Positions 24,874 through 44,898 of a stretch of 64,000 nt of DNA are shown piece by piece (the first letter of the stretch is position 1; each line of letters opens with the position of its first letter). The translations under genes and the position numbers were made by a program. Source of the DNA: Helicobacter cetorum (GTDB lineage: Bacteria > Campylobacterota > Campylobacteria > Campylobacterales > DZAY01); assembly GCA_022729735.1 (NCBI GenBank), contig DZAY01000004.1, positions 1 to 64,000 of the forward strand, written 5' to 3'. Under the pieces are notes generated by a model that did no database searches, was not told the origin of the DNA, and saw only the letters and a list, made by a program, of their open reading frames with translations.

Positions 24874-25593
24874 ATGAAACAGATTTCAAAACTTCTATTT
24901 TATGATGAAATATTAGATTTAACTATTCCAAAAAACATAAAAAATTTAGGTAATCCATGGTTTGATTATCCATTTTTTATAAAAGATAACTTTTTAAATA
25001 GTGATGAAATTGATACTATCTTTGGTGATATTAAAGATGAAAATAGCAAAATAGCATCAATCAAACAGATAAAAGATAACTATATAGATACCAAAATAGA
25101 TACAAATTATCGAAAAACAGATACATTTTCTATTTCAAATTTATCCAAATCATTATATCTAAATAGATTTGCAAATGTTAAATTAGAAATAGAACAGTTT
25201 TTTAGATTTTCAATGATAGAGAGTGATAATTTACAACTATTAGGATATAAAAAAGGATATTTTTATTCGATGCACTCTGATAATGCAAACTATATATTAA
25301 ATAAAAATGGAGATATTGAGCATTGGCGAGTTGTAGCAAGTGAGCGAAAAGTTACAACTGTGCTATTTTTAACAACAGAAGTAGAAAATAGTCCAAAAGC
25401 AAGAGAGCATATTGGAGGAAGTTTGGTATTTAATTTTTTATTTGATGAAGATAAAAAACTTGCAACTATAAAACCAAAAGCTGGTTTATTAATAGCATTT
25501 CCAAGTAATCCATATTTTGCACACAGTGTAGAAAAAGTCATTGAAGGTTATAGAGCATCTGTTGTGAGTTGGCATAATGGAGTTTTTAACTAA
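24874..25593 (+). CDS. 2-oxoglutarate/Fe(II)-dependent oxygenase (prolyl-4-hydroxylase-like)
   Basis: Such enzymes hydroxylate protein or small substrates using O2 and 2-oxoglutarate. The 239-residue protein shows the metal-binding H-x-D in FYSMHSDNANY near 131-141, the distal histidine in PYFAHSVEKV near 214, and the 2-oxoglutarate arginine in GYRASVVSWH ten residues later. A preceding GGSLVFNF strand fits the double-stranded beta helix. The substrate is not predictable. It is the only plus-strand gene here and converges on the ROK gene, overlapping it by eight bases at the 3' ends. Confidence 0.8.
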   Translation: MKQISKLLFYDEILDLTIPKNIKNLGNPWFDYPFFIKDNFLNSDEIDTIFGDIKDENSKIASIKQIKDNYIDTKIDTNYRKTDTFSISNLSKSLYLNRFANVKLEIEQFFRFSMIESDNLQLLGYKKGYFYSMHSDNANYILNKNGDIEHWRVVASERKVTTVLFLTTEVENSPKAREHIGGSLVFNFLFDEDKKLATIKPKAGLLIAFPSNPYFAHSVEKVIEGYRASVVSWHNGVFN

Positions 25594-26410
25594 GCAACAT
25601 AGCACCTTCAATGCTTGAATTATTAAGAGTTGATAAAACTATTTTTGGATGTGATGATGGTTTTAGTGAGAGTTTAGCAATAGACTCTTTTACAAAATCT
25701 AAAAGTTTTGGATTATTTAAAAACAGTGAGCCACTTAAAACTATTAAATCTGGATTTAGTATAGTTGTAATTGTAGATGTTGCATAAGATAGAGAGTCAT
25801 AAAAATTATCTAAAATAGTTTTTGAATTGGAATGATTTTCTAACTCTTCTAAACTAAAATTTTTTAAATTAAGCTCCAAATAGTCTGCCCATTTGATAAT
25901 AGCACTACCTGAACAAAACAGCTCTAAACAATCAGTTTTACCACAACCACAAATAAATGGAGACTCTTTGTAGTGAATATGTCCAATTTCACCTGCTAAA
26001 TTGTTTGCACCTCTAATAAGAGTTGAGTTATAAATATAAGCACTTCCAAAACCTGTGCCAATTGATAGTAAAACTATCATTTTATAATCTTTATAAATCG
26101 AGGCTTCTTTGAGGGCTGAACATTTTAAATCATTCTCTATTACTACTTTTACACCATATTTTTGCATAAAATATTCACTAATATTTAGAGATTTTATAGC
26201 AATATTTGGAGCAGAGAGGATAACTCCATTATCCACTTGCCCAGCAAATGAGATGCCAATAAAAGTTGGCTTAAAAGTGATAGTTAGCTCTTCTAACTTA
26301 GATATAACATCAAGTTCTAAGACTTTTAAACTCTCTTCTTTTAATACAACTTCACTATCTTTTAGAATATATCTAAAATTTGTGCCACCAATATCTACAA
26401 ATAGTTCCAC
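25586..26410 (-). CDS. ROK-family glucokinase
   Basis: The kinase phosphorylates free glucose released from glucan. The 274-residue protein starts with the ATP loop MELFVDIGGTNFRYIL, has VVIENDLKCSALKEA near 95-109 with the catalytic aspartate, LSIGTGFGSAYI near 120, and the ROK zinc cluster with GHIHYKESPFICGCGKTDC near 142-160. There is no N-terminal DNA-binding domain, so it is an enzyme, not a repressor. It is the last gene of the 13-gene carbohydrate operon. Confidence 0.9.
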   Translation of the reverse strand: MELFVDIGGTNFRYILKDSEVVLKEESLKVLELDVISKLEELTITFKPTFIGISFAGQVDNGVILSAPNIAIKSLNISEYFMQKYGVKVVIENDLKCSALKEASIYKDYKMIVLLSIGTGFGSAYIYNSTLIRGANNLAGEIGHIHYKESPFICGCGKTDCLELFCSGSAIIKWADYLELNLKNFSLEELENHSNSKTILDNFYDSLSYATSTITTILNPDLIVLSGSLFLNNPKLLDFVKESIAKLSLKPSSHPKIVLSTLNNSSIEGAMLLS

Positions 26411-27993
26411 TATTTTGCAAACACTTTGTAATCTATAAATGAAAAAATTGAGTTTTTATACTCTAAATAGTCCAAAAATCCAAAATCGATAGCATCATTT
26501 TCAAACATATCAAGCAGTTTATTAAAGTTACTAATATGCTCTTTTGTTCGTTGAACACTATACTCAATCGCAGTTTTTGTTGTCATTAAGAATGCCCAAT
26601 CACTACTTTGAGCCAAAAGCAATTCTCTCAATAACTGATTCAAAACTCTAATATTATTGAAACTGCTTTCATGATAATGTTTGTTTGCAAGTTCTTGCAT
26701 TTTATCTGCCATGAAGTGTAAATGTCTATATATCCAATCATTTCCACTATTAAGCCACACATCATAATATCCACCATCACCCCATGATGAAGGGTTTGGA
26801 GTAATTACTTGATTTTTATGATTTTGAGCTAAATACTCTGGTGGAGTTAAAACTTTTATCTCTTTATGTTTATCTATTTCTTTAAATAGTTCATATAAAA
26901 AGTCTGGTCCTTCAAACCACCAATGTCCAAATAGTTCTGCATCATATGGAGATAAAACCATAGGAGGTCGCTCTAAAATTGAGCCTAAATATTCAAACTG
27001 TTTCACTCTATTTGAATGGAAATTCTCTGCATGAACTTTTGTTTTAGCTTTTGCAATATCTGGTTGATATGCTTCTTTGTATTCTGTTGTGCCTGTGATT
27101 TTATGATATTTAATACCTGTAAATACTCTAACTCCATCTGGAGAAATATAATTTCTGATATAATCAAACTCTAAATCATAACCAATATCTCTATAAAAAT
27201 CTCTATAATTAAAATCCCCCGGATAACCTTCTTTTGAACTCCAAACCTGTTTTGATGATTCTGGGTCTCTACCAAAAATTGCTACACCTTTTCTTGTATA
27301 AACTGGAGCAAAAACACCATATTTTGGAGTTGGAGTTCCATAAATTAATCCATTTGATTCCATAAAGAAAAATTTAATTCCATTATCATTTAATATCTCA
27401 TCAAGTCCATCATAATATGCACACTCTGGAAGCCAAATTCCACTTGGTGGTTTATTAAAATATCTTTTATGAGTCTCTACAGCAACTTTGATTTGAACTT
27501 CGACAGCTTTTTTATTATCACTTAAAATTGGTAAAAATCCATGAGTTGCTCCACATGTAATAATTTCCAATTTACCCAAATCACTAAAATATCTATATCC
27601 ATTTAAAACATTTGAGTTTAAAAATTCTAAGAAGAAATTTTTTATCGTTTCAAATCTATCTTTGTAATAGTATGCTAAATGTCTAAAATTTTCATCATCT
27701 CTTAATCGAACTATCTCTTTGTCTGATAATTCAATCAGTTTATTTAGATAGTTTAAATACTTTTCAATTAAGATTGTATCATTTAACATTTCTGCTAATG
27801 GAGGAGTGATAGAAATTGTTAATCTAAAATCAATACCTTCATCATTTAACTTTTTTAAATTCATAAGAAGTGGAATATAGCTTTCTGTAATCGCTTCAAA
27901 CAGCCAATGCTCTTCCAAAAAATAGTCAAAATCTGGATGCTTGACAAATGGAAGATGTGAGTGAAGAACAGGTATAAAATATCCTTTATACAT
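26410..27993 (-). CDS. GH57 1,4-alpha-glucan branching-enzyme-like protein
   Basis: GH57 branching enzymes introduce alpha-1,6 links into glycogen-like polymers. The 527-residue protein opens HSHLPFVKHPDFDYFLEEHW, has the nucleophile segment GIWLPECAYYDG near 183-194 and the acid segment SPYDAELFGHWWFEGPDFL near 349-367, followed by the helical DUF1957-type C-terminus. Length matches the bacterial branching subgroup. It abuts the DUF4912 gene, a frequent partner of this family. Confidence 0.85.
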   Translation of the reverse strand: MYKGYFIPVLHSHLPFVKHPDFDYFLEEHWLFEAITESYIPLLMNLKKLNDEGIDFRLTISITPPLAEMLNDTILIEKYLNYLNKLIELSDKEIVRLRDDENFRHLAYYYKDRFETIKNFFLEFLNSNVLNGYRYFSDLGKLEIITCGATHGFLPILSDNKKAVEVQIKVAVETHKRYFNKPPSGIWLPECAYYDGLDEILNDNGIKFFFMESNGLIYGTPTPKYGVFAPVYTRKGVAIFGRDPESSKQVWSSKEGYPGDFNYRDFYRDIGYDLEFDYIRNYISPDGVRVFTGIKYHKITGTTEYKEAYQPDIAKAKTKVHAENFHSNRVKQFEYLGSILERPPMVLSPYDAELFGHWWFEGPDFLYELFKEIDKHKEIKVLTPPEYLAQNHKNQVITPNPSSWGDGGYYDVWLNSGNDWIYRHLHFMADKMQELANKHYHESSFNNIRVLNQLLRELLLAQSSDWAFLMTTKTAIEYSVQRTKEHISNFNKLLDMFENDAIDFGFLDYLEYKNSIFSFIDYKVFAK

Positions 27994-28620
27994 TTAGTTT
28001 CCTTTTATGCTATTTTGACTACTGCCAATCATTTCTGATATTTGGAATTTTTTTAGTAACTCCATCTCTTTTAAAAAACTTTTTGATGATACTGCAATAG
28101 AAAAATGGGTTGATGCTCTAATAACTTCTAACCACTCTTCACTTCTAATCATCCATACCTCATCTTTATCAACTGTTTCTGTGATTAAATCTGATGGTGT
28201 TTTTATCTCTTTTGAGCGAATTAGCTCTACAAAATTGTTATCTTTATCATAAAAACCTATTTTACAGTAGATTCTCTTTGCTGGAGCATAAATTTTTGCA
28301 TAATATTTTCCAATTCTATTATCAATCTTTGCACTGAAAATATCTCGCTCACTTTCACAAATTTTTATCTCTCCATTGAAACTATATGGATTTAATCCAA
28401 ATTTAAGTAGTAACTCTTCTGTAATCTCCCAATAACTAAACAGAGTATTTACATTTACAGCAGTTATAACTATTTTATCTTCAAAATATTGCTCTTTGAT
28501 TGGAAACTCTGAATGTCTTGTATAATTTCTTAATTCTGGTAAAAAAGAATCTATTGTATGTAATTCGCTACTACCTATACTATTTTGACTTGCTTTCAAG
28601 ACCTCTTTCTTATTTATCAT
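27994..28620 (-). CDS. DUF4912 domain protein
   Basis: The 208-residue protein has the DUF4912 core: KIVITAVNVNTLFSYWEITE near 49-68, a strand-rich middle, and IRSEEWLEVIRASTHFSIAV near 156-175. Members are common next to GH57 enzymes and may bind polysaccharide, although the function is not proven. AAGGAGGAATTA precedes the ATG, a strong ribosome site. The 69-base gap to galT is the largest inside the operon and might hold an internal promoter. Confidence 0.8.
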   Translation of the reverse strand: MINKKEVLKASQNSIGSSELHTIDSFLPELRNYTRHSEFPIKEQYFEDKIVITAVNVNTLFSYWEITEELLLKFGLNPYSFNGEIKICESERDIFSAKIDNRIGKYYAKIYAPAKRIYCKIGFYDKDNNFVELIRSKEIKTPSDLITETVDKDEVWMIRSEEWLEVIRASTHFSIAVSSKSFLKEMELLKKFQISEMIGSSQNSIKGN

Positions 28621-28689
28621 TAATTCCTCCTTTGGTCTTTGTATTTATAATTTTACAATCTTTTTAATACAAAACTGTTAAAAAAATAT

Positions 28690-29688
28690 CTATCTATTTT
28701 TTAAAAATTTTGCACTATCTTCTGGTGGAATACTATTTATATAGTAACCACTAAATAGCTCAAATCCAGCCACCATAGAAGTTCGTGGAATAATATCAAT
28801 ATGCCATCTAAAAAACTCTTCTATTTTATGAAAATAGTGAGGATTTTTATGGCTCCTTTTTGGTGGAGCTGTAATTATTCCAATATTTAAACTTGGATCA
28901 GATAAAGCTATATCTAATTTTTTCATAATAATTTTGAAAATAGAGCTAAGCTCTCGTAATAAAGCATCATCTATTCCTTCAAAATTACTACTTTGAAACT
29001 TTGGCACAATCCTTAACTCAAATGAAAAAAATGATGCAAATGGTGCATATACAATAAAATGCTCACTCTCTAAAACAACTCTTTTTCCCTCTTTTTTTTC
29101 AAAATCTATCTCATCATTCAATAAATTTCGCTCATATTCATTAAAGTAATCTCTGCACTGATTTATTTCTGTATCGATATTTTTTGGAATAATTGGAGTT
29201 GCTATTATTTGAGAGTGTGAATGGCTAATTGTAGCTCCAGCATGTTTTTTATGATTTTTAAAAGCTTGAACATAAGCTATTCTATCATCCTTTGTTAAAT
29301 CTTTAATTCTTAAACTAATAGAGTTAAAAATTAAAAAAAACTCATCAGCTTCAAAATTCATAATATTTCTATTTGGATTTGGAGTATCAATGACAACTTC
29401 GTGAGCTCCAAAACCTCCAATCTTTGAAGCAACTCCACAACCATCTCTTTTAGGTTCATTTTCAATTGATACAGCACGAAACTTATTTGGAACGACTCTT
29501 ACTTTCCAAGGCTCACCAACTTTTAGTATCTCTTTTGGAGTTAAATATTCTCTTCCAGCTTCAAAAGGTGAGCTTTCAATATCTTTTTCAAATATGCTAT
29601 TCATTTGAAAATATGTTGGTCTATTAGCCCTCTCCCTTGCTATTATAACCCAATTATCTTTGAGTCTTGAATATCTAAATTCAGACAA
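28690..29688 (-). CDS. galT: Galactose-1-phosphate uridylyltransferase-like (HIT superfamily)
   Basis: GalT transfers a nucleotidyl group between hexose-1-phosphates through a histidine intermediate. The 332-residue protein has RVVPNKFRAVS near 62, the FGAHEVVIDTPNPN segment near 90-103 and the active site HAGATISHSHSQIIATPIIP near 149-168. The usual H-P-H-x-Q is H-S-H-S-Q here. No galactokinase or epimerase is nearby, so a role in glucose-1-phosphate or ADP-glucose turnover is possible. TTG at 29688 with AGGAGG upstream is the start; it overlaps the preceding GH57 gene. Confidence 0.82.
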   Translation of the reverse strand: MSEFRYSRLKDNWVIIARERANRPTYFQMNSIFEKDIESSPFEAGREYLTPKEILKVGEPWKVRVVPNKFRAVSIENEPKRDGCGVASKIGGFGAHEVVIDTPNPNRNIMNFEADEFFLIFNSISLRIKDLTKDDRIAYVQAFKNHKKHAGATISHSHSQIIATPIIPKNIDTEINQCRDYFNEYERNLLNDEIDFEKKEGKRVVLESEHFIVYAPFASFFSFELRIVPKFQSSNFEGIDDALLRELSSIFKIIMKKLDIALSDPSLNIGIITAPPKRSHKNPHYFHKIEEFFRWHIDIIPRTSMVAGFELFSGYYINSIPPEDSAKFLKNR

Positions 29689-31639
29689 GATAACCTCCTA
29701 TATTAATAGCTCCATCTACCTTTTTGACACTAAATTTAAATCCGATACTAATTCCTTGAACTGTTCTATCAAACCCATTTTCACTTTTGCTAATAGTCTC
29801 TATTTTTCCAATAAAAACTTTATTGGCAACAGCTTTAAAGATAAAATCTACACTCTTTTTGGTGTATGGGTCTTTTATCTCCAATCTATCAATATTGCTA
29901 AACTCCAAAGTAGATACAATTTTTTCACCATTAATCAAAAGTAAATCATAAATCGCAAAGTGTAAATTAAACTCTACACAATAATCTTTTTCTATCTCTT
30001 CATTAACTAAAACTTTGAAATTCAACACACTATCTTTTAGCCAAAACTCCTTTTGTATAGATTGGTTTTCTAAATGGATTTTTTTACCACTTTTAATTAT
30101 ACTAAAACCACTCTCAATTGGTAAATTTCCACCCAAAAAGTTATCAATATCTAAATCTCTATCTACTAAATGGTCGATGAATGAATATTTTTCATACTCA
30201 TCATATTTAATTAATTTTTTTAACTCTTCAATATTTTTTGGCATATTTTGATGATGAATTGTAGCTACATTGCTATCAATTGGATTAATATCTTCTATAT
30301 GCTCAACTATTTTTTTATGATAGAGCTCTTTTTTTCTACTAATTGTATTTTGAAGATTAAATGAGCAATCTCTAATATCAAATTCAATTAAGCTACCTAA
30401 TTTTTCTTCAAAAATAGTAATTAGTTTATCATTTGATATTTTAGCTTCCAATACTCCATCTAAATTAAAATCATCAATTATAAATTCCGAACTCTCCAAT
30501 ATATTTTCGCAATCTATAATATATCTATAAGCATTATCTCTTAAATTTGGTAGATAAAGCCCTCCAAAAACACCATGCCATAACACATCATTTGTTTGAC
30601 TTCTATATAATTTATCTTCAAAAACTCTTGTGTGTTTTGCATCTTTTTTATATTTTGAAAGTTCCAAAAATCGCTTTTGAATATGATTACTTTGTGGATA
30701 TTTAACCAAAAAGTTTTTCCAAATACTACCTTTTAAAAATTTGTTTTCTAAATTATGTTCTTCTAAAAGTTTCATATCACTTTCATACTCAACACCACTC
30801 TCATAATCCAAACTCCATTCACCCATTTCAAAATATGAAACAGTTGGTAGATATGCAATCCCTTTTGGTTTATGATTTTCAACATATTCATAAAAGTGTT
30901 GGCTTTGCACTTTTGTATGATGTGTTAAAAATTCAAAAAAAGCTCTAAGCCAACCATTTTCATAAACATGATGATAAGTTGTTGGCCAAATTCCAAACTT
31001 TTCACCATCATCAAATAGAATTAAAGCATCATTATCACTTTTACTATTAAAATAGTTACTAATATTTTCTATACTATCAAATGGGATTTTATATCTAAGC
31101 TCTTTATCAATTGGAAATATTTTAATAGATTCTCCCCCACTTTCACTTAAATAGTATCCATGTAAGCTATCTTTTTTAAATCCACTACATAAAAAGTGGT
31201 AATCATCTACAATTACATACTCAATTCCAGCTTCTTTTATGTCAGCAATTATAGAATCATCCCAAACTCGCTCCGTAAGCCATAAACCTTTTGGTTTTTG
31301 ATTGAAATGTTTTTTTATAAAACTATTTAGTTTTTTAATTTGCCCAACTCTATCATCTTTTGGAATAGATGCCAAAATCGGCTCATAATATCCACCACTA
31401 AAAAACTCTATACTATTATTAGCACTTGCTTCTTGCATATAACCAAATAGCTCTGGTGATTTATCTTTTATATATTCCAATAACCATCCACTATAATGGA
31501 CAGCAACTTTTATATCTCTATAATCCCTTAATAGTTTAAAAAATGGTTTATATGATTTCTCAATCGCTTCATCCACAACTTCGCTAAAATTATCCACAGG
31601 TTGGTGGCAATGAATTCCAAATAAAAATGATATGCTCAT
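29681..31639 (-). CDS. GH57 4-alpha-glucanotransferase-like protein
   Basis: These enzymes shuffle or cut alpha-1,4-glucan chains. The 652-residue protein begins SISFLFGIHCHQPVDNFSEV, has the nucleophile region PKGLWLTERVWDDSIIADI near 116-134 and ILFDDGEKFGIWPTTY near 206-221. The last 250 residues form the beta-rich DUF1926-like domain (HLENQSIQKEFWLKDSVLN). The ATG at 31639, with AGGAG upstream, is preferred over GTG/ATG positions further out. It overlaps galT. Confidence 0.85.
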   Translation of the reverse strand: MSISFLFGIHCHQPVDNFSEVVDEAIEKSYKPFFKLLRDYRDIKVAVHYSGWLLEYIKDKSPELFGYMQEASANNSIEFFSGGYYEPILASIPKDDRVGQIKKLNSFIKKHFNQKPKGLWLTERVWDDSIIADIKEAGIEYVIVDDYHFLCSGFKKDSLHGYYLSESGGESIKIFPIDKELRYKIPFDSIENISNYFNSKSDNDALILFDDGEKFGIWPTTYHHVYENGWLRAFFEFLTHHTKVQSQHFYEYVENHKPKGIAYLPTVSYFEMGEWSLDYESGVEYESDMKLLEEHNLENKFLKGSIWKNFLVKYPQSNHIQKRFLELSKYKKDAKHTRVFEDKLYRSQTNDVLWHGVFGGLYLPNLRDNAYRYIIDCENILESSEFIIDDFNLDGVLEAKISNDKLITIFEEKLGSLIEFDIRDCSFNLQNTISRKKELYHKKIVEHIEDINPIDSNVATIHHQNMPKNIEELKKLIKYDEYEKYSFIDHLVDRDLDIDNFLGGNLPIESGFSIIKSGKKIHLENQSIQKEFWLKDSVLNFKVLVNEEIEKDYCVEFNLHFAIYDLLLINGEKIVSTLEFSNIDRLEIKDPYTKKSVDFIFKAVANKVFIGKIETISKSENGFDRTVQGISIGFKFSVKKVDGAINIGGYLV

Positions 31640-31647
31640 CTCTTCTC

Positions 31648-33729
31648 CTATATAAACCAATTTTGTAAAAATTGGCTCTCTAAATTTATTTCTATTTCCG
31701 AATAGATTGGGTATCTCTCTACTATTGCACCATCTTTATGCAACTCAAACACAACATTAAACTTCTTTTCAGCACTTAAAAATAGATTTCTAACTATTTT
31801 TATTTCTAAAATATCTTTGATTGCATATTTTATATCTTTTGAAGTAACTTGATTATCTGCTAATATTGGAATTAAAACTTCTAAACCTTTTGAAGATATG
31901 AGATTTATTTTCAGAGTAAAACCCTTATTTATAATCTCTATCAATCGACCTTCTAATGCAAAATAGATACTGTCTTCATCATATCCATAGTGAAGTGAGG
32001 AAAATATAAATCCACTTGAATCCATACTTGAACTATCTTTTAAATTTATAAATCCACTTCCAAGCCACTCAAAAAAGTTTGAATATCGCCCATCAATTAG
32101 TGGAGTTATGAAATTTTTTGGCTCTCTATTTACAATTTTTTGAGTTTTTGTAACAATTGGGTCAAATAGATATGGTGGAGCCTCTAAGTTTGCTATTGTG
32201 TAGATATTTATTAGATGCTTTCTAAATAGATAGTCAAAATCTTCTGCTAATGGTGTAAAATGGTCATCTCCATACCACCAAAACCAATCACTACCTTCTG
32301 CAACTAATAGCTCTTTTTTGATTTTTGCTAACTGCTCATTTGAAAAAATTGCCAAGTTTTCATCTACAAATTTTTTAGTTTTTGATAACAGTTCCCAAGC
32401 TCTATTTTTTTGCTCTTGTCCAATCCAAGTAGAAAATGTTCCATATATCCAGCTTCCAGCCTTAATAGTTCCAATCTCACTTTCTAAATTATCATCCACA
32501 AACATCTCATCTAATGTAGTTAATTCACACCACGGAAGTGAATTTAACTGACTATAAAGCTCTATAAAAAAATCTTTAGCATTATTTGGATAATACTCCC
32601 AAGCATTTTCACCATCTAAAAATATAAATAGATTTGGAGCAATACTTAAACTATCATAAATGGATTTTAGTCTATTTATAAAGTCAGCTACTGCTTCTTT
32701 TGCTGATAAATTCGAGTATGTAAAACCTATTAAATCACTAAGCCGTTTATTTCTAAATGCCATTTTAATGGAGTGATTATCTTTTTTAAATAGATATTTT
32801 TTGTATAAATTTAGCTCACTTCTGCCAAGACTTTTGTAAATAATATCTTCATCTGTGCATACCCATTTAACTCCAGCTTTTGATAACTCAACTAATGTTT
32901 GCTCACTAACTGAACCTTCCGATGGCCAAAAACCTGTTGGATTTCTATCAAATATCCACTTATAATACTCAATTCCAGACCTAATTTGCTCTAAGGCATC
33001 TAACTCAAAATGGTAAAAAAAGTTTGGCATTTTGGTTTGAATATCAGCTTCTAATGCGGACTCTTTATTTAATAATAGAGGCAAAATTGGATGATAAAAA
33101 GGTGTTGTTGATACTGATATTAGATTTTGTTCAAGCAGAGTTTTGTAATATGGCAAAATTGTGCCAATAAATGAGTGCAACTCTACAAAAAGTGTAGTTT
33201 TATCATCTTGTGAAAATCCACTACCTTTTTCTAAAAGTTCTTTTACTACTCTATTGTTTTCTCGTAAATATGTCCCACACCAAGAGAGTATAAAAAGAAC
33301 CTCTAAATCTAATAGTTCATCATAATTTAATGCTTTTGCAAACTCTTCTAAATCTTTAAAACTTTCTCTTTTGTGATAAAGCTCACTGTATCTATATAGT
33401 GGTTCTATCATATTTTTATAATTGGAGTCAAAAAGTCGTTTTGCAAGTAATACTCTATCTTTTTCATCTAATACTAATACATCTTTTTTAATGAGAGTTA
33501 GCAATGTATCATTTACACTAAAATTTTCATACTCTTTTAGTTGTAGCATTAATGATGGAACAAGGTTAAAAGTAACCTTTGCTCCACAAATTTGTGCAAA
33601 ATATGGCATCTCATAATAGTCTTTAATAGCATGTAGAAATACCCATGGCATTACATATTTATCATTTAAATCATCTTTATAATATGGTTGATGCATGTGC
33701 CATAAAAAGGCTAATTTAAGTTTTTTCAT
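31648..33729 (-). CDS. GH57 amylopullulanase/alpha-amylase-like protein
   Basis: The 693-residue protein begins KLAFLWHMHQPYYKDDLN and VTFNLVPSLMLQL, typical of the amylopullulanase-like GH57 branch that cuts alpha-1,4 and sometimes alpha-1,6 links. The nucleophile segment is TGFWPSEGSVSEQTLV near 265-280; LFIFLDGENAWEYYPNNAKD near 369-388 contains a further acidic site. No signal peptide is visible, so it probably acts on cytoplasmic glucan. The ATG overlaps the previous stop as ATGA. Confidence 0.85.
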   Translation of the reverse strand: MKKLKLAFLWHMHQPYYKDDLNDKYVMPWVFLHAIKDYYEMPYFAQICGAKVTFNLVPSLMLQLKEYENFSVNDTLLTLIKKDVLVLDEKDRVLLAKRLFDSNYKNMIEPLYRYSELYHKRESFKDLEEFAKALNYDELLDLEVLFILSWCGTYLRENNRVVKELLEKGSGFSQDDKTTLFVELHSFIGTILPYYKTLLEQNLISVSTTPFYHPILPLLLNKESALEADIQTKMPNFFYHFELDALEQIRSGIEYYKWIFDRNPTGFWPSEGSVSEQTLVELSKAGVKWVCTDEDIIYKSLGRSELNLYKKYLFKKDNHSIKMAFRNKRLSDLIGFTYSNLSAKEAVADFINRLKSIYDSLSIAPNLFIFLDGENAWEYYPNNAKDFFIELYSQLNSLPWCELTTLDEMFVDDNLESEIGTIKAGSWIYGTFSTWIGQEQKNRAWELLSKTKKFVDENLAIFSNEQLAKIKKELLVAEGSDWFWWYGDDHFTPLAEDFDYLFRKHLINIYTIANLEAPPYLFDPIVTKTQKIVNREPKNFITPLIDGRYSNFFEWLGSGFINLKDSSSMDSSGFIFSSLHYGYDEDSIYFALEGRLIEIINKGFTLKINLISSKGLEVLIPILADNQVTSKDIKYAIKDILEIKIVRNLFLSAEKKFNVVFELHKDGAIVERYPIYSEIEINLESQFLQNWFI

Positions 33730-36227
33730 TCCTCACTTATCCAATGTTTAATTTTCTCTACAAATTCCAATTTTAATGTTTCGCCACTCTCTTTTGTAGC
33801 TGTTTGAACTGATAAATGGAGTGAATCATCATGTTGGTCTGGTATCATTAAAATCCATGATTTATCATCAAGTGAAATTTTAACACCATCTACAAATGAT
33901 GCTTCTTTACCAACACTTGCTTCCATAAATTTTCGCATCATCTTGCCTTTATATGCACTAGGACATGTTACATTACTATTTTCATAAAAAAACTCTGGAA
34001 TAGTTTTTAGAATATCTGAAATTGTTGTATCTGTTTTTGCTAACATCTCTACAATTTTCACACTTGCAAAGAGAGCATCATTACTTAAACTAAAGTTTGT
34101 AAATGTGAAATTACCTTCTACATTTGCAACTAAAGCATAATTCCTCATCTTAGATGCACTCATACCAGAAATTTTTGCTCTCTCAATTACAATATTTTTA
34201 AATGAGCTATCAAGCACATCTGGAGCCCAAACAGGAAGTAAAACTTTTGTATCTTTTGGAGCAACTTTATCAAATAGTGATAATACCACCAAAAGTGTTA
34301 TATGTGTGTCTAAAATCTCACCACTATTTGCAATCAATTGAACTCTTTGTCCATTTGGATATATCATAAATCCAGCATCTAAAGTTAAAGTTTGAACAAT
34401 TTTTGATACATCTTCTTGTGATTTTTCTATAACTTTTGTAATGTTGTGAAGTTTTTTAGTATCTGCATAAGCACTTAAAACAATGTTTTCAATTCCCAAA
34501 ATATTTAAAATTCGTGGATAAACATCTGCTGTTGAACCATGCATTATATCTACAACAATTTTTGGTTTTTTATTTGTAATTACATCTTTGTCAAGTTGTG
34601 ATATAAAATCATTTACATACTCTTCTCTAATATCATCAACTGCCAAAATTTCACCAATCTCATTGAAATTAACTCTCCTAAAGCTCTCTCTAAAAAATAC
34701 TCTTTCACAATTTTTTTCACTATTTGTATCAATTGGTAGAGCATTATCGTTATAAAATAGAATTTCCGTATTCATAGGATTATTAATTGATTGTCTAAAA
34801 TGGACACCTGCTGAAATATTTTTATTTTTAGTTAATGAGTACCGCATAATATTTGATGGACAAACTCTTAAATCAATTACATTAATTCCAGCACTCATCA
34901 ATCCTGCAAAAAATGCTCGCTTTAACATTCTTGAAGTTTTGTGATAATCTCTTGATAAATATACTGTTGAGTGTGCTGGTAACATAGAACCAAAAGCTTC
35001 TGCAAGTTTGATACTTAGCTCACAACTAAGCTCAACATTTGTTCTTCCACTAACAACTCCACCATTAAAAATTGAGCTTTTATATTTATCACCCCAAACA
35101 ACACTATTACTTAAAATAGCACCCTCTTCTATCTCTTTGTTTGGCCAAATTGTTACATCTTTTTCTACACTTACTAAATTTTCAATTACACACTTTTCAG
35201 CTATTACTGCACCTTGCTTGATTTTTACTTTTCTACCAAGTCTATTATCATTGCAAATAACTGCTAAATTTAGTGAATTTTTTTCGCCAATTTCTACTCT
35301 ATCCCATAAAATTGAACTCTCTAATTCGCTCTTTTTACCAATGACAACATCATTTCCAACAACACAATTAATAAGAGTTACACCTTTGCCAATAGTTACA
35401 TTTTTGCCAAGTAGCACATTTCCTTCAACTTCTAAATCTTCTGGTAACTCCATATTTTCATCTGCTAAATATAGTGTGCCATTTGATTTTTTAACTTCAA
35501 ATCCACCAATTTTTAATCTTACAACACCATTTAAAATATCTTCAAACACATCTCTATAACTTTTTGGATTTCCGACATCTCTCCAATAGCCTTTTAAGTT
35601 TTTACCCCAAAGTGGAATACCTTCTCTCATAATCAAAGGGAACAGCTCTTTTGCAAAATCAAATGCTCCACTATCTAGAATATAGTTTAATATTTCTGGC
35701 TCAATTATATAAATTCCCGTATTTATAGTATCTGAAAATACTTCACCCCAACTTGGTTTTTCTAAAAATTTTTGAATTCTTCCATCAGCTCCTGCAATTA
35801 CAACTCCAAATTGCAATGGGTCACTAACTGAAGTAAGTCCGATTGTAAGTTTTGAACTCTTTTGAGCATGAAAATCAATTAACTCTTGAAAATTAAAATC
35901 TGTAATTAAATCACCACTTACAATAATAAAGCTCTCATCTAAGAACTCTTTTGCCTTTTTTACAGCTCCAGCTGTGCCATAATCATCATCTGGAACTACA
36001 TAATTTATCTTTACACCAAACTCACTTCCATCTCCAAAATGGCTTTTTATAACTTCTGGCATATAGTATAGTAATACAACCATCTCTTTTATTCCAATAT
36101 CTCTTAGACTCTCTAAGACATGTTGCATCATTGGCTTGTTTAACACTGGTAACATAGGTTTTGGAATAGAGTTTGTTAATGGTTGTATTCTTGTTCCAAA
36201 ACCACCTGCCATAATCACTGCTTTCAT
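33726..36227 (-). CDS. Fused sugar-nucleotidyltransferase / phosphomannomutase-like protein
   Basis: The 833-residue protein has an N-terminal nucleotidyltransferase (MKAVIMAGGFGTRIQPLT, then GAVKKAKEFL and an aspartate in SGDLITDF), a left-handed hexapeptide helix near 250-370, and a C-terminal phosphohexomutase (about 375-833). The mutase phosphoserine loop, normally TASHNP, reads VHFRQSINNPMNT, as in related fused proteins. It may interconvert hexose-phosphates and make NDP-sugar. The ATG at 36227 follows AGGAG; a longer frame start at 36269 lies inside the preceding gene. Confidence 0.82.
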   Translation of the reverse strand: MKAVIMAGGFGTRIQPLTNSIPKPMLPVLNKPMMQHVLESLRDIGIKEMVVLLYYMPEVIKSHFGDGSEFGVKINYVVPDDDYGTAGAVKKAKEFLDESFIIVSGDLITDFNFQELIDFHAQKSSKLTIGLTSVSDPLQFGVVIAGADGRIQKFLEKPSWGEVFSDTINTGIYIIEPEILNYILDSGAFDFAKELFPLIMREGIPLWGKNLKGYWRDVGNPKSYRDVFEDILNGVVRLKIGGFEVKKSNGTLYLADENMELPEDLEVEGNVLLGKNVTIGKGVTLINCVVGNDVVIGKKSELESSILWDRVEIGEKNSLNLAVICNDNRLGRKVKIKQGAVIAEKCVIENLVSVEKDVTIWPNKEIEEGAILSNSVVWGDKYKSSIFNGGVVSGRTNVELSCELSIKLAEAFGSMLPAHSTVYLSRDYHKTSRMLKRAFFAGLMSAGINVIDLRVCPSNIMRYSLTKNKNISAGVHFRQSINNPMNTEILFYNDNALPIDTNSEKNCERVFFRESFRRVNFNEIGEILAVDDIREEYVNDFISQLDKDVITNKKPKIVVDIMHGSTADVYPRILNILGIENIVLSAYADTKKLHNITKVIEKSQEDVSKIVQTLTLDAGFMIYPNGQRVQLIANSGEILDTHITLLVVLSLFDKVAPKDTKVLLPVWAPDVLDSSFKNIVIERAKISGMSASKMRNYALVANVEGNFTFTNFSLSNDALFASVKIVEMLAKTDTTISDILKTIPEFFYENSNVTCPSAYKGKMMRKFMEASVGKEASFVDGVKISLDDKSWILMIPDQHDDSLHLSVQTATKESGETLKLEFVEKIKHWISEE

Positions 36228-36228
36228 T

Positions 36229-38010
36229 TTACTTACTCCTTTTAATTTTCCAAATTTTACACTCACCAAGCAACTGTTTATTTTTATTAAATAGTGCTTT
36301 CATCTGCTCAAAAATACTATTTAGTTTTTTGATAGTATCAATCGCATAGGGTCCCTTATTTAGCATTACACAATCTGCTCTTTGTGCTGTTCCTGCATCT
36401 ATTACTTCTGCTCTACTTGGAATATTTGTTTTCATTTGTGTTTCTAACACTTGTGTTGCTAAAATTACAGGAATATGAGCTGAAGCACAAAGTTCAAATA
36501 TCTCTTCTTGCAAAAGTGCTAAATTTTCAAATCCAGCTTCAATTGCTAAATCTCCCCTTGCTATCATTATAGCACTTTTTGGAGCTTGTAGTAGTCCTTC
36601 GATAATTTCTGGTAGATTAGAAATCGCTTTTTTTGTTTCAATCTTTGCAACAACTCCAATCTCTCTACCACTTTTATTAATTATTTCAAGTAAATCTAAA
36701 ATATCTTCTTTGCTTTGAGCAAAAGATACTCCAAAAATATCTACAAGGTCAATGATTTCTGCTATATTTTTTTTATCTTCTTTTGTGATTGCTTTTAGAT
36801 TTATATCAGAATCTGGAAAGTTTATCCCTTTTTCTTCTTTTAAAATAAACCCTTTATCTTTTGCTAAAATCACTTCACACATTACTCCATTATCTTTGAT
36901 AGATGTAACTTTTAATCCAAGTTTGCCATCATCAATAAATACTCGCTCACCTTTTTTGACACACGACATAGCTTCTTTGTTTGTGCAAGAAACTACCGCA
37001 TAATCTCGCTCGATAGTTTTAGCACTTCCAAAAATATCATCAGTTGTAATAAAAATTTTATCTTTATCAAATAGTCTAATCTCTTCTATTGTATCTTCAA
37101 AATCTTTTAGAGTTGAAGTAAAAAAGTTTTTCTTCTTTTTCAGTTTCAAGACAGTTTCATTAGATAATATTACTTTTTTATCAATTGTAGCTTCAACTAA
37201 ATTAGAACTCTTTTTAGTTACAAGCAACTCTCGTTTTTTATCTAAAGCATCATAAAATAGGATTTTATCACCCTCTTTCAACTCTTTAAAAAACTCTTCA
37301 CTTACAACCAAATTTGCAGGAACTTTTTTACCTTTTAAATTTATACTCTCCGATTTTGTTTGACCATTAGTTGATATAGTAATTGTAGTTGTTTCAACTT
37401 TTGAGCCAATTTTTATAGATGGTTCAACTCTACTGATTTTACCTGTTCTAATCTTTGGTCCAGCAATATCAGCAAAAATTATTGCATTTGGATTTTGTGA
37501 TTTAATATTATTAATCATACTTTTCCAAACTTCACTACTATCATGAGATGTATTTACTCTAAACATATTTACATTTAAATTTAACATCTCTTTTATAAAT
37601 TCTCTGTCATTTGCTGAATCAGTTGGCAAAGTCAATAAAACTTTTGGTATTCCACAACTTAAATTTTCTACTCCAAAAATTGCTCTATTTTTTTGAGCAA
37701 TTTCTAAAGAGTCTTTGATTGTCAAATAGCTATCCATGTTTTCTACATTTTCTTCTTTTGATAGAGCAGATAGTATCTCAATAACATGATTTAAACTATC
37801 AATAACATGCATTTGAGACCTACCAAGAGATGATAAGCCAATTAATGAGAGTCTATCTTGAAGTTTTGTATTATCTCTACTTCTAAGCTTTAGATAGTGA
37901 TACATGTTTTTTATACTAACATTTTCACTATCAACTTTCTGCTCTAATACTACCTCTTTTAACTTTCTTAACTCTTTTAATAGAGCTTTTACCTCTTTTA
38001 TATCTATCAT
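36229..38010 (-). CDS. pyk: Pyruvate kinase-like protein with N-terminal extension
   Basis: Pyruvate kinase makes ATP and pyruvate from phosphoenolpyruvate. The 593-residue protein has an unusual first 120 residues (including IGLSSLGRSQMHVIDSLNHV), then the barrel with MFRVNTSHDS near 160, IFADIAGPKIRTGKI near 186-200, VVAKIETKKAI, IMIARGDLAIEAGF near 482 and ILATQVLETQMKTNIPSRAE near 517-536. The usual SGETAxGxYP stretch is replaced by NKGPYAID and the C-terminal regulatory domain is missing. It is probably catalytic but not allosterically regulated in the usual way. Confidence 0.8.
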   Translation of the reverse strand: MIDIKEVKALLKELRKLKEVVLEQKVDSENVSIKNMYHYLKLRSRDNTKLQDRLSLIGLSSLGRSQMHVIDSLNHVIEILSALSKEENVENMDSYLTIKDSLEIAQKNRAIFGVENLSCGIPKVLLTLPTDSANDREFIKEMLNLNVNMFRVNTSHDSSEVWKSMINNIKSQNPNAIIFADIAGPKIRTGKISRVEPSIKIGSKVETTTITISTNGQTKSESINLKGKKVPANLVVSEEFFKELKEGDKILFYDALDKKRELLVTKKSSNLVEATIDKKVILSNETVLKLKKKKNFFTSTLKDFEDTIEEIRLFDKDKIFITTDDIFGSAKTIERDYAVVSCTNKEAMSCVKKGERVFIDDGKLGLKVTSIKDNGVMCEVILAKDKGFILKEEKGINFPDSDINLKAITKEDKKNIAEIIDLVDIFGVSFAQSKEDILDLLEIINKSGREIGVVAKIETKKAISNLPEIIEGLLQAPKSAIMIARGDLAIEAGFENLALLQEEIFELCASAHIPVILATQVLETQMKTNIPSRAEVIDAGTAQRADCVMLNKGPYAIDTIKKLNSIFEQMKALFNKNKQLLGECKIWKIKRSK

Positions 38011-38019
38011 ATTTTCTCC

Positions 38020-39942: not shown

Positions 39943-39954
39943 TTAAAGCTCCTT

Positions 39955-41127
39955 TTAATATTTTTTAACCATCTTTAAAAGTGGTTTTTTGTATTTATAA
40001 AAAATATACTGTTTTAGATAATATGCTAAAACACCATCTAATTTTATATTTCCAGCTACACCAATCGCATCAGATAAACCAATTGCAACCATCACACCTT
40101 TTAAACTAAAATCTGCTTCTTTAAGAGCTGTTTTGTGAATTGAATTTAAAATATTTTGAGCTACAAAAACTCCAGATGCAATTGCAATTTGAGATGTTGG
40201 CGGTAAATTTTTATCATCTTTTGATTTTATTTGGGCTACATCTCCAGCTACAAACACATTTTCTAATCCACTAAATCTCAAATATTTATCAGCAATGACT
40301 TGATTTAATCTATTTTTTTCTGTATCAAAACTCTTTGTAAGACTACTTGCTATAATGCCACCTGTCCAAATCATAAAATCCATATTTATTTCTTGTCCAT
40401 CGTGAATATAGACTTTTTCTTGTGTAACTTTTATAACTCTTTTGTCAGATAAAACTTTTACACCAAGTTTTTCCAATTTTTTCAAACTATTTTCAATAAT
40501 AAAACTATCCATACCAAATAAAATTGTCTTATCTGCATTTACTAAATAGACTTCCATACCACTACAATCAAATCCACTTTGAGTAAAAAGAGAGTTTGCA
40601 TACTCTGCTAAACTCGAAGCTATTTCAACTCCAGAAAGTCCAGCACCACCAACAATTATATTCAAAGGCTCTTTTTTGCACTCACCACTCTCAATATTTT
40701 TATACATTGCAACTTCAAATTTTTGTTTAAACTCCATAGCACTACATAAATTTTTAATGCCATGAGAATTATCTTTTAAACCTTCAATGAAATTGAAATA
40801 TAGAGTTCTCGCACCAGTTGCAACTATCAAATAGTCATAACTTAAAGTTTCATTATCACCGAAAATGACAAACTGTTTATTAAAATCAACACCTATAACC
40901 TTTTTCTGTAAAAAGAGTGTATTTTTATAGAAAGAGGCAATAGCTACCAAACTAATTGTTATATCTGCTAAATTTGTTTTATTTGCGATATATCCATAAA
41001 CTTCTGGTTGTAAATAGTGATATGGGTGTTGGTCAATCAAAGTTACCTTCACATCACTACTCAAACCTAAAACAGAAAGTGCAGATACTCCTGCATATCC
41101 ACCACCTAAAATAACAACACTCTTCAC
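39955..41127 (-). CDS. Type II NADH:quinone oxidoreductase-like flavoprotein
   Basis: These single-subunit enzymes oxidise NADH and reduce quinone without pumping protons. The 390-residue protein has the FAD loop VVILGGGYAGVSALSVL at 4-20, DYLIVATGARTLYF near 97, the NADH loop IIVGGAGLSGVEIASSLAE near 156-174 and VFVAGDVAQIK near 285. The C-terminal half has basic and hydrophobic residues (YYLKQYIFYKYKKPLLKMVK), suited to membrane contact. It overlaps pfkA by one base, tying it to glycolysis. Confidence 0.82.
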   Translation of the reverse strand: MKSVVILGGGYAGVSALSVLGLSSDVKVTLIDQHPYHYLQPEVYGYIANKTNLADITISLVAIASFYKNTLFLQKKVIGVDFNKQFVIFGDNETLSYDYLIVATGARTLYFNFIEGLKDNSHGIKNLCSAMEFKQKFEVAMYKNIESGECKKEPLNIIVGGAGLSGVEIASSLAEYANSLFTQSGFDCSGMEVYLVNADKTILFGMDSFIIENSLKKLEKLGVKVLSDKRVIKVTQEKVYIHDGQEINMDFMIWTGGIIASSLTKSFDTEKNRLNQVIADKYLRFSGLENVFVAGDVAQIKSKDDKNLPPTSQIAIASGVFVAQNILNSIHKTALKEADFSLKGVMVAIGLSDAIGVAGNIKLDGVLAYYLKQYIFYKYKKPLLKMVKKY

Positions 41128-42089
41128 TATTTACACAACCTTTGTCCCATTCTTAATAGATATTCGCTAACTTGATATTTTCCTGAATTAATAAATGATA
41201 TGTCTCTATAATCAAATTTAGAATCTTTATATACAACAACACTATTATTTCTACCATCTAATAGTCCATCTATTGCAAAAGTTGTAAATTCAAAAGCCAT
41301 CAATCTATCAAATACAGTTGGACTTCCACCTCGTTGGACATGTCCTAAAATTGTGGCACGACTCTCAAATCCTATATCTTTTTCAAACCAATCACAAATT
41401 GATTGAGTAGAGTTTTTAACACCTTCTGAAACAACAGCTACAAAGTAGTTTCTACCTTCTTTTACTTCTCTTATAAATCTATCTTTTAAAGAGTTTAAAT
41501 CATATCCAAGCTCTGGAACTAAACACATTTCAGCTCCACTTGTAAGTGCTGAAACAAGTGCTAAATATCCACAATCTCGTCCCATAACTTCAATTACAAA
41601 AGCTCTTCTAAAAGAGTAAGCTGTATCTCTTATTTCATCAATTGCAACTCTTATAATATTTAGTGCTGTATCAACTCCCAAACAGTAATCAGTGCCATAA
41701 ATATCATTATCAATAGTTGATGGAATTCCTGCAAATGTTATCCCAAAATCTTGATAAAAAGCATTCATAGCTCTAAATGAGCCATCACCACCACAAACTA
41801 CAAGCTTGTCAATACCTTTTGCCTTGAGATTATTATAAGCTATTTCTCGATAGCTTTTATCAAAAAATCGCTTTGACCTTGAAGTTCTAAGAACAGTTCC
41901 ACCTCGATATATAATTCCTGAAACTCTATCATGAGTTGCTTCATGAATATTATTATCAATTAATCCTTCTAAACCATCATATATTAAATAAGATTTATAT
42001 CCAAGCTCTTTTGTATATTCCACAAATCGCTTAATTGCTGGATTCATTCCTGCACTATCGCCACCTGAACACATAATAGCAAATGACAT
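41127..42089 (-). CDS. pfkA: 6-phosphofructokinase, ATP-type
   Basis: PfkA commits fructose-6-phosphate to glycolysis. The 320-residue protein has IMCSGGDSAGMNPAI at 5-19, the ATP-binding VVCGGDGSFRAMNAF near 97-111 (GGDGS as in ATP-using enzymes; pyrophosphate enzymes usually have GGDD), and the catalytic GIPSTIDNDIYGTD near 121-134. VIEVMGRDCGYLA and GHVQRGGSPTVFDR are also intact. Many host-associated Campylobacterota lack this enzyme, so its presence matters for the glycolytic direction. Confidence 0.93.
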   Translation of the reverse strand: MSFAIMCSGGDSAGMNPAIKRFVEYTKELGYKSYLIYDGLEGLIDNNIHEATHDRVSGIIYRGGTVLRTSRSKRFFDKSYREIAYNNLKAKGIDKLVVCGGDGSFRAMNAFYQDFGITFAGIPSTIDNDIYGTDYCLGVDTALNIIRVAIDEIRDTAYSFRRAFVIEVMGRDCGYLALVSALTSGAEMCLVPELGYDLNSLKDRFIREVKEGRNYFVAVVSEGVKNSTQSICDWFEKDIGFESRATILGHVQRGGSPTVFDRLMAFEFTTFAIDGLLDGRNNSVVVYKDSKFDYRDISFINSGKYQVSEYLLRMGQRLCK

Positions 42090-42091
42090 AT

Positions 42092-43318
42092 TTAAGCCTT
42101 TTTGAATTTATTAACTAATTTTTGCTTTCCAAACTCAACACCTGGTTGGTCATATGTATTTATTTCAAAACATATTCCTGTAAGTGAAGTTAAAAGCTCA
42201 AAATAGATTATCACTTCTCCAACACTTTCTTCATTGATAGTATCAAGCTCTATTAAATCAACTGGCACATTCTGCTCTACTAAAGTTTCAAGTGTAGAAT
42301 CACACTGTGCATTAATCAAATCTGAATGTTTATGTCCATTTATAAAATCGGTAGAGCTTAAATAGTTTAGTTTTATATCTGGCACAACACTATCTACTCC
42401 AAAATTATTGATTTTAATAAATGTTACAAACTTATCTCGCGGACCTTGAACTATTAATTGTAAAAATGAGTGTTGGTCGATTGAACCAATTAAGCCAACT
42501 GGAGTTAAACCTACATTTTCATTATATCTATTTATTTTACCAAGAGACTCTCCCCAAAGTTGCACAAACCAAGCATTAAGTGAGCTAAACTCTGAAGCAT
42601 AACTAAATAGAACTGAAATAGGTTTTGTTTTTGCATTTTGATATAGATATTTAGCTTTTAAAATCATCTCTTTTGGATTTTCAAAAAACCTCTCTTGATA
42701 ACTTTTTGCACCATTTAAAAGAGCTTTTATGTCATATCCTATAATTGCTAATGGCACCAATCCAACAGCACTTAAAACTGAAAATCTACCACCAACATTT
42801 GGATATATATAAAATCGTTTAATACTATTTTCTTCACCAAGTTTATCAAGGCTTGAGCCTCTATCTGTGATAAAAACAACTCTATTTGAAATTGAATTTT
42901 GTAGATTAAATTGCTCAATTACTGTCTTATAAACTGTAATTGTCTCAATAGTCGAACCTGATTTTGAAATTACAATAAAAAGTGAGTTATCTTTATCAAT
43001 TTGCGCTAAATCAAGTTTTAATCTAATTGGGTCGCAGTTTTCTAAAAAAGTGAGTTTTATACCATTTCTATTTGGTTGAAAATTTAGTAGTGCATCAACA
43101 GCTTTTGAACCAAGTGAGCTTCCACCAATTCCAATAACTACTAAATCTTTTAAGTTTGACAGTCCATTTTTATACTCTAAAATCTCTTCAACTAACTCAT
43201 TTTGCGAGTTAGCAAGAGAGTAGTAACCTATCTCTTCTCGCTCTTTTTTTACCTTTTCAAAGATGCTTTGAGTATCTAAACCATCTTCTAAGTTAAAAAA
43301 AAATTTACTACTTAACAT
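42092..43318 (-). CDS. pgi: Glucose-6-phosphate isomerase
   Basis: Pgi interconverts glucose-6-phosphate and fructose-6-phosphate. The 408-residue protein is the short form seen in Campylobacterota. LVVIGIGGSSLGSKAVDALL is near 60-79, FIVISKSGSTIETITVYKTV near 113-132, and the GGRFSVLSAVGLVPLAI segment near 174-190. The glutamate of WGESLGK near 250 and histidine of SIDQHSFLQL near 280 fit the active site. It overlaps gap by seven bases. Confidence 0.94.
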   Translation of the reverse strand: MLSSKFFFNLEDGLDTQSIFEKVKKEREEIGYYSLANSQNELVEEILEYKNGLSNLKDLVVIGIGGSSLGSKAVDALLNFQPNRNGIKLTFLENCDPIRLKLDLAQIDKDNSLFIVISKSGSTIETITVYKTVIEQFNLQNSISNRVVFITDRGSSLDKLGEENSIKRFYIYPNVGGRFSVLSAVGLVPLAIIGYDIKALLNGAKSYQERFFENPKEMILKAKYLYQNAKTKPISVLFSYASEFSSLNAWFVQLWGESLGKINRYNENVGLTPVGLIGSIDQHSFLQLIVQGPRDKFVTFIKINNFGVDSVVPDIKLNYLSSTDFINGHKHSDLINAQCDSTLETLVEQNVPVDLIELDTINEESVGEVIIYFELLTSLTGICFEINTYDQPGVEFGKQKLVNKFKKA

Positions 43319-44313: not shown

Positions 44314-44372
44314 CTTTTCTCCTTTTGACTTTTTAAAATTTTAGTATCAAATAATTACCAATTAGCCACACA

Positions 44373-44405
44373 CAAGCCTAATACAGCCATTTACATTAAG
44401 GCTTG
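44373..44405. promoter_or_regulatory. Inverted repeat upstream of the carbohydrate operon
   Basis: CAAGCCT (44373-44379) and AGGCTTG (44399-44405) form perfect seven-base arms 19 bases apart, 60 bases upstream of gap. It could be an operator for the operon, which is inference only. The rest of 44314-44619 is very AT-rich and shows no gene; the operon promoter probably lies there on the minus strand. Confidence 0.35.
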
Positions 44406-44619
44406 TAACAATTCTATCTACAAATAGTTTTAAAAATACTTATAGTTTTAAAGAAGATTTTTAAATGATACAAAAAGATGATAATTTAGCAGTTTTTGAA
44501 AAATTTTTTTAAAAGATAAATTGAATGAATTATGTTTTTATTTTGAATTTTGTAGTGATGAAAAAAAGTTAGTTCTGATAAGTCTATGATTTTTTAAAAA
44601 TTTTTGTAAGTCAAAAAAG

Positions 44620-44704
44620 TGGTGCGGTTGGAGGGACTTGAACCCCCACACCTTGCGATACTAGATCCTAAGTCTAGCGCGTCTGCCAATTCCGCCACAA
44701 CCGC
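44620..44704 (-). tRNA. tRNA-Leu (anticodon TAG)
   Basis: On the minus strand the acceptor arms GCGGTTG and CAACCGC pair, the anticodon stem is CTAGA/TCTAG with loop CTTAGGA (anticodon TAG), and a T-loop GTTCAAGTC precedes the encoded CCA. The variable arm is long, as expected for Leu. It is the last of five tRNA genes on this strand. Confidence 0.95.
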
Positions 44705-44710
44705 TAAAAG

Positions 44711-44787
44711 TGGTACGCCCATCAGGAATCGAACCTGAAACCTACGCCTTAGAAGGGCGTTGCTCTATCCAATTGAGCTATGGACGC
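44711..44787 (-). tRNA. tRNA-Arg (anticodon TCT)
   Basis: The minus strand shows a cloverleaf with GCGTCCA at the 5' acceptor, D-arm AGCTC, anticodon loop CTTCTAA within ACGCC/GGCGT arms, T-loop GTTCGAATC and encoded CCA. Confidence 0.95.
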
Positions 44788-44798
44788 ATATAAAAAAG

Positions 44799-44875: not shown

Positions 44876-44898
44876 ATATCTGTAATGCGAACTTATAG

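Follow-up and report, generated by a model that had tools for sequence, protein, structure and literature searches.

A fused nucleotidyltransferase/pseudo-mutase gene and a GalT-like gene as a probable glycogen module in Helicobacter cetorum and other Campylobacterota

Two minus-strand genes are considered here, both within a 64,000-nucleotide stretch of Helicobacter cetorum DNA (GCA_022729735.1, contig DZAY01000004.1, positions 1 to 64,000; hereafter the window), which is part of contig C32 of a genome of 2.52 Mb in 66 contigs (completeness 99.5%, contamination 7.4%). One encodes a fused protein, in which a nucleotidyltransferase domain, a left-handed beta-helix and a degenerate phosphosugar-mutase domain follow one another, and the other a protein resembling galactose-1-phosphate uridylyltransferase, GalT (Table 1). 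Both open reading frames lie where a first-pass annotation, made from the letters of the window, had placed them, and the motifs HSHSQ and RQSINNP that it had singled out are present in the translations. The fused gene starts with ATG at 36227 following AAAAGGAGTAAGTAAA, a ribosome-binding-like sequence, and the GalT-like gene with TTG at 29688 following ATAGGAGG. The two belong to a close-packed run of minus-strand genes that reads, in order, GAPDH, PGI, PFK, a pyridine-nucleotide oxidoreductase, a nucleoside diphosphate (NDP)-forming acetyl-CoA-ligase-like protein, a long pyruvate kinase, the fused protein, two GH57 proteins, the GalT-like protein, a DUF4912 protein, a GH57 branching enzyme and a ROK protein, the last of which is a probable glucokinase. 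Role names within the run that go further than the models cited in Table 1 are putative. With GAPDH, PGI, PFK, pyruvate kinase, three GH57 proteins and ROK in the run, the earlier description of the operon as otherwise handling glucose holds.

Table 1. Positions of the fused gene, the GalT-like gene and their neighbours in the window.
Feature	Position	Strand	Basis
Fused protein, 833 amino acids: nucleotidyltransferase, left-handed beta-helix and degenerate phosphosugar-mutase domain	33726..36227	-	Open reading frame; Pfam NTP_transferase, LbH_EIF2B, PGM_PMM_I, PGM_PMM_II
Nucleotidyltransferase domain, about residues 1-245	35493..36227	-	Catalytic residues intact in alignment
Left-handed beta-helix domain, about residues 256-370	35118..35462	-	PF25084 78.7 bits, Hexapep; model mostly low confidence
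Pseudo-mutase domain, about residues 383-833, alpha-D-phosphohexomutase fold without catalytic loops	33729..35081	-	Structure match and alignment
RQSINNP, at the place of the phosphoserine loop (own GlmM: SASHNP)	34776..34796	-	Translation; alignment with own GlmM
YPNGQR, at the place of the metal loop DGDADR	34344..34361	-	Translation; alignment
GalT-like protein, 332 amino acids	28690..29688	-	Open reading frame; nearest solved structure 1z84
HSHSQ active-site motif of GalT-like protein	29209..29223	-	Translation
GH57 protein between fused and GalT-like genes	31648..33729	-	PF03065 185 bits
GH57 alpha-amylase/4-alpha-glucanotransferase-type protein	29681..31660	-	PF03065, PF09094, PF09095
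DUF4912 protein	27994..28620	-	PF16258
GH57 1,4-alpha-glucan branching enzyme	26410..27993	-	PF03065 and PF09210 BE_C
ROK family protein	25586..26410	-	PF00480 145 bits
Long pyruvate-kinase-like protein	36229..38010	-	PF00224; NF011314 499.9 bits, below cut-off 642
PFK, PGI and GAPDH genes of the same run	41127..44313	-	NF002872, NF003016, TIGR01534 above cut-offs

The distribution of the fused gene follows that of glycogen synthase. Among 298 genomes that we infer to be of the phylum Campylobacterota, the fused gene was found in 44, near full length in 42, in two pieces in G219 and as residues 9-424 only in G239. GlgA scored above its curated cut-off in 44 genomes as well, and the two sets are identical, the other 254 genomes having neither (Fisher p 1e-53, no correction for kinship). 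The 44 genomes represent 21 genera. Three of these are mixed, with both genes present in 9, 2 and 4 genomes and missing from 8, 4 and 1, respectively (g9, g50 and g13), so that within them both genes occur in 15 genomes and neither in 13 with no exception (chance 5.5e-7). Two glgA matches above cut-off were seen in 23 of the 44 GlgA genomes, several of them in tandem and beside the GalT-like gene. GlgC was above cut-off in none of the 298 genomes, although the same test was passed by 7 of 14 control genomes. Some nucleotidyltransferase gave a weak match to the GlgC model in 291 of the 298, and nucleotidyltransferases as such do therefore not track GlgA. The window's own genome holds six NTP_transferase genes including the fused one; four of the others exceed the cut-offs of assigned models, i.e., RmlA (497.3 bits), GalU (396.5), glucose-1-phosphate cytidylyltransferase (401.0) and GlmU (684.4), and a CBS-type protein (L003) exceeds none of the model cut-offs shown. 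Its GlgA scores 533 bits on TIGR02095, the "ADP-glucose type" model (cut-off 328.45). Because the fused gene occurs in the same 44 genomes as GlgA, none of the 298 has a GlgC above cut-off, the other transferases of the genome are mostly assigned and its GlgA scores on the ADP-glucose-type model, the fused protein is the most promising candidate for the pyrophosphorylase that is missing here, one making NDP-glucose and probably ADP-glucose.

The nucleotidyltransferase half is intact in its catalytic residues. It belongs to the PF00483 superfamily (191.3 bits) and carries the GxGxR...PKP signature, the metal Asp, the EKP motif and the second metal Asp. R13, K23, D106, E156, K157 and D217 are invariant in all 29 transferase halves aligned, that is 28 of the 36 available copies of the phylum, window included, and a Chloroflexia copy (L014); the roles of R13, K23, D106, K157 and D217 are those which we take such residues to have. 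The 30 best-scoring of the 44 fused genes were retrieved as loci. Copies L010, L023, L031, L033, L036, L039, L046 and L048 were left out of the alignment and the partial L013 was not used; the loops of the seven omitted copies other than L033 agree by eye. Named relatives of the fused gene, on which the assignment of the 298 genomes to Campylobacterota is based, are seven metagenome bins of Campylobacterota type with 53-59% identity and the Chloroflexia bin at 35%, together with one weak mutase match in Nitrosopumilus. GlgC was likewise above cut-off in none of four genomes consisting of that of L014 and three relatives. The fused protein shares with GlgC the superfamily (nucleotidyltransferase and left-handed beta-helix) and the proposed place in the pathway, before GlgA. 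It differs in scoring only 127.8 bits on TIGR02091 (126.9 in the genome scan; cut-off 424.9) and in carrying the degenerate mutase domain.

Two other substrates must be considered for this half. The fused protein might be a GDP-mannose pyrophosphorylase serving cell-surface sugars and be an accidental member of the operon: NF052502 (man1P_GTase_Rv) is its best NCBIfam model with 244 bits, and the transferase and beta-helix half resembles, with 171.4 bits by sequence, GDP-mannose pyrophosphorylase (GMPPB/VTC1) and its relative GMPPA, the predicted model matching GMPPB (7d72) with Z 29.3 over 348 residues. The score is far below the cut-off of 440 for the bacterial GDP-mannose enzyme, the setting is one of glycogen genes, the protein has an additional domain of mutase fold, and its distribution is identical with that of GlgA, which makes this explanation quite improbable. 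Alternatively, it might be a UDP-glucose pyrophosphorylase (like 8x7s, tlr0611), with GlgA taking UDP-glucose and the GalT-like protein acting on UDP-glucose. Among solved structures the one that best matches the transferase half is a UTP-glucose-1-phosphate uridylyltransferase (176.2 bits). As GalU is present, a second UDP-glucose pyrophosphorylase tied to GlgA would be redundant; in addition GlgA scores on the ADP-glucose-type model and the GalT-like protein is nearest to a plant ADP-glucose enzyme (see below). We consider a UDP-glucose enzyme unlikely, and the nucleotide sugar that the fused protein would make is probably ADP-glucose rather than UDP-glucose.

The mutase half has kept its fold and lost its chemistry. 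In a predicted model of the fused protein (mean predicted local distance difference test score 83, predicted template modelling score 0.68; low confidence in the beta-helix and in transferase stretches around residues 10-13 and 157-164) it has the alpha-D-phosphohexomutase fold, matching phosphoglucomutase 9du5 with Z 40.9 and a root-mean-square deviation of 2.7 over 439 residues. This is the whole fold of the archaeal phosphoglucomutases/phosphomannomutases (9du5, 1wqa), from which it differs by the loss of the catalytic loops. As controls served the genome's own GlmM (L016, above cut-off) and a PGM/PMM-like protein (L017; nearest model PgmG, 395.1 bits, below the cut-off of 600), both of which keep DGDADR with all three metal Asp. 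The Asp is found in none of the 28 copies at any of the three Mg2+-ligand positions, nor is the Arg of the phosphate loop RxSxT at the aligned column or the Glu of the sugar loop GExSGH, where the alignment is gapped. In the phosphoserine loop, where GlmM is the sole control because L017 is misaligned there, 18 of 28 copies retain the catalytic Ser and none the His that follows it in GlmM. The changed phosphoserine loop noted in the first-pass annotation is thus real, and is one of four mutase loops that are lost. A working bifunctional transferase/mutase was rejected on the loss of these loops. Judged by its residues the mutase half is catalytically dead, and since the domain has been kept in these copies without its catalytic residues, a regulatory or structural role is suggested.

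It could be argued that the fused protein as a whole serves chiefly for sensing or as a scaffold and makes no NDP-sugar, GlgA being fed by the GalT-like enzyme working towards ADP-glucose, by GalU or by L003. The missing catalytic loops of the mutase half would fit, and GMPPA, which we take to be a regulatory relative, is among the sequence matches. The invariance of the transferase catalytic residues (29/29) and the absence of the GalT-like gene from two of the 44 GlgA genomes speak against it, and we regard it as very unlikely.

The GalT-like gene is closely tied to the fused gene. It was found in 44 of the 298 genomes, in 42 of them together with the fused gene and in 40 of those on one contig at a distance of at most 8.5 kb. 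G210 and G125 have the fused gene only, G057 and G258 the GalT-like gene only. Where the GalT-like gene and glgA occur together (42 genomes), they are at most 1.5 kb apart in 34, and in 26 of these at most 26 bp; in the window's genome glgA is on a separate contig (C54), not beside it. Among solved structures the GalT-like protein is best matched by the plant protein 1z84 (183.5 bits vs 51.2 for E. coli GalT, 1hxp), and the family profile gives 304.5 bits to 1z84 vs 158.8 to the GalT 6k5z and 131.8 to 1hxp. We take 1z84, named GalT-like in the PDB, to be the Arabidopsis ADP-glucose phosphorylase At5g18200. This fits the statement, in the part of PMC11066809 consulted, that the plant ADP-glucose phosphorylase, an enzyme of unknown role, has a known crystal structure. 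According to an excerpt of PMC4136846, the plant enzyme splits ADP-glucose to yield ADP and glucose-1-phosphate, its Km (Michaelis constant) being 7 µM.

The motif HSHSQ had been read as an informative departure from HPHxQ. This view was abandoned, as relatives differ in the residue that separates the two histidines: in 29 family proteins (from 30 loci, L051 being unread; L054 and L060 lie outside glycogen clusters) the site reads HPHTQ in 15, HSHSQ in 6 including the window, HPHSQ in 3, HSHTQ in 2, and HVHTQ, HIHTQ and HAHTQ in one each, and 1z84 itself reads SHSHSQ. Both His and the Gln of the site are invariant in the 28 proteins aligned, from the same 30 loci without L051 and the near-duplicate L059. 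A second stretch near the C-terminus, IN..PE, is common to the GalT-like protein and 1z84, and its Asn is not shared by E. coli GalT or 6k5z; N318 and P322 of the stretch are invariant in 28/28, and it may set the specificity. At5g18200 (EC 2.7.7.36) thus shares SHSHSQ and the GFE...IN..PE stretch with the GalT-like protein and differs in being a plant enzyme, the gene here belonging to a glycogen operon of a bacterium.

The protein might instead be an ordinary GalT used in galactose salvage; it scores 99.6 bits on TIGR00209, just below the cut-off of 102.1. The earlier statement that galactokinase is lacking stands, as the window's own genome gave no match and none of the 298 has one above cut-off. 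Weaker galactokinase matches occur in 45 of these, five of them full length at 144-154 bits and all outside the GalT-like set, and G288, inside that set, has a partial match of 39.6 bits. The lack of an epimerase is true of the operon and was rejected for the genome, where GalE is above its curated cut-off on contig C38 (435.4 bits, cut-off 262.3), a point in favour of salvage. The absence of a galactokinase above cut-off, the greater similarity to 1z84 than to GalT and the position beside glgA or NDP-glucose-type glucosyltransferase genes render salvage extremely improbable. From this sequence evidence the GalT-like protein is most likely an ADP-glucose phosphorylase and not a galactose enzyme.

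The setting of the gene outside glycogen clusters is of a similar kind. In G057 and G258 (L094, L095), which have neither the fused gene nor glgA above cut-off, the GalT-like gene belongs to a cluster of glucosylglycerate type. Its companions there are a GpgS-like glucosyltransferase (335 bits, cut-off 700), a GT2/MGS-like gene and a glycerate kinase; G258 also has a GT20 protein, and an MPGP-like phosphatase is fused to its glycerate kinase. As the GalT-like gene is found beside genes for either GlgA or a GpgS-like glucosyltransferase, its neighbours probably use NDP-glucose in both settings. In G134 (L099:9954-12572) a single open reading frame of 872 amino acids joins a GH57 domain and a GalT-like domain.

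Considered together, the fused and GalT-like genes probably form a glycogen module that connects with glycolysis. The N-terminal half of the fused protein would make NDP-glucose, probably ADP-glucose, from glucose-1-phosphate and a nucleoside triphosphate for use by GlgA. The dead mutase at its C-terminus would probably act as a sugar-phosphate sensor or hold oligomers together, and in this way tune the transferase. Interconversion of glucose-6-phosphate and glucose-1-phosphate would probably be left to a separate mutase with intact motifs, L017. The GalT-like protein would interconvert ADP-glucose plus phosphate and ADP plus glucose-1-phosphate. As a whole this GlgC-less glycogen module, with the fused protein as GlgC substitute, a dead mutase and a GalT-like ADP-glucose phosphorylase, is the best explanation, and we hold it to be rather probable. 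The pair most likely deals with glycogen, glucose-1-phosphate and NDP-glucose and has no part in galactose or mannose metabolism. To this extent the module proposed in the first-pass annotation is borne out by the coincidence of the fused-gene and GlgA genomes, by linkage and by the lack of any GlgC or galK above cut-off in the 298; what falls away is a working mutase half, the three Mg2+-ligand Asp being absent from all 28 copies.

Several observations weigh against such a module. In sequence, the transferase half resembles pyrophosphorylases for GDP-mannose and UDP-glucose more than it does GlgC (244 bits on NF052502, 127.8 on TIGR02091), and its best solved-structure match is a UDP-glucose enzyme. 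GlgA could use UDP-glucose, because the genome carries GalU, and L003 might conceivably make the donor in the window's genome. Co-occurrence links the fused gene with glycogen synthesis, yet alone it is no proof of catalysis and does not discriminate between ADP-glucose and UDP-glucose, and kinship was handled only within three genera. The genome bin is 7.4% contaminated, and its glgA lies on another contig. An Asp or Glu stands two columns beyond the sugar-loop Glu in 23 of the 28 copies. For the fused gene of G036 (L046), no single reading frame longer than 583 amino acids was found. The Chloroflexia copy L014 has both domain kinds at 35% identity, retains the Ser and a single metal Asp, the remaining ligands being lost, and has no glycogen gene among the seven neighbours scanned. 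The fusion may therefore be older than its use in glycogen metabolism or have other uses.

It is tempting to go one step further and see here a phylum-wide non-GlgC ADP-glucose pyrophosphorylase in which a dead phosphoglucomutase serves as allosteric sugar-phosphate sensor, together with a GalT-type ADP-glucose phosphorylase. The latter would let ADP-glucose and glucose-1-phosphate be turned into each other with no pyrophosphate spent. In the two relatives without glycogen synthase it may supply NDP-glucose for glucosylglycerate-type solutes. This joint reading is tentative, and we would sooner doubt it than accept it. The glycogen module, if true, fills a missing step in those sampled genomes that have an ADP-glucose-type GlgA and no recognisable GlgC. 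By this account, proteins with these domains in this order would here be neither GDP-mannose pyrophosphorylases nor phosphosugar mutases, despite their nearest curated models, and a former metabolic domain may have turned regulator within one enzyme.

Glycogen metabolism in these bacteria has been touched upon before. The passages available from PMC3958643 refer to vent-specific clusters of genes with which Epsilonproteobacteria make and use glycogen, those from PMC11406935 mention glycogen synthesis and GH57 among clusters of orthologous groups, and in those from PMC12113678 and PMC6908604 glycogen receives a brief mention; the fused gene is not named in these passages. In the limited collection of literature searched, consulted in excerpts, no published account of GlgC replacement by such a fused protein was found. 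A fusion of both domain kinds in one protein is described, in the excerpt consulted, for the GMP/ManB-like SCO1388 of Streptomyces (PMC5982138), which was compared by description.

A scan of positions 25000-44900 gave no excess of promoters or terminators over shuffled sequences (102 vs 108.2 and 5 vs 5.8, respectively). Some neighbours of the two genes are of interest in their own right. The pyruvate kinase at 36229-38010 has an unusual layout, and a second pyruvate-kinase-like open reading frame, read by eye, adjoins an alpha-glucan phosphorylase gene (TIGR02094 487.1 bits, cut-off 191.7) on contig C56. In the NDP-forming acetyl-CoA-ligase-like protein (38020-39942), encoded within the glycolytic operon, the ATP-grasp part comes first. 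Further along, a protein of 1277 amino acids with NHL, Big_5 and propeller matches (20568-24401) adjoins a CHAD-domain protein at 19025-20464.

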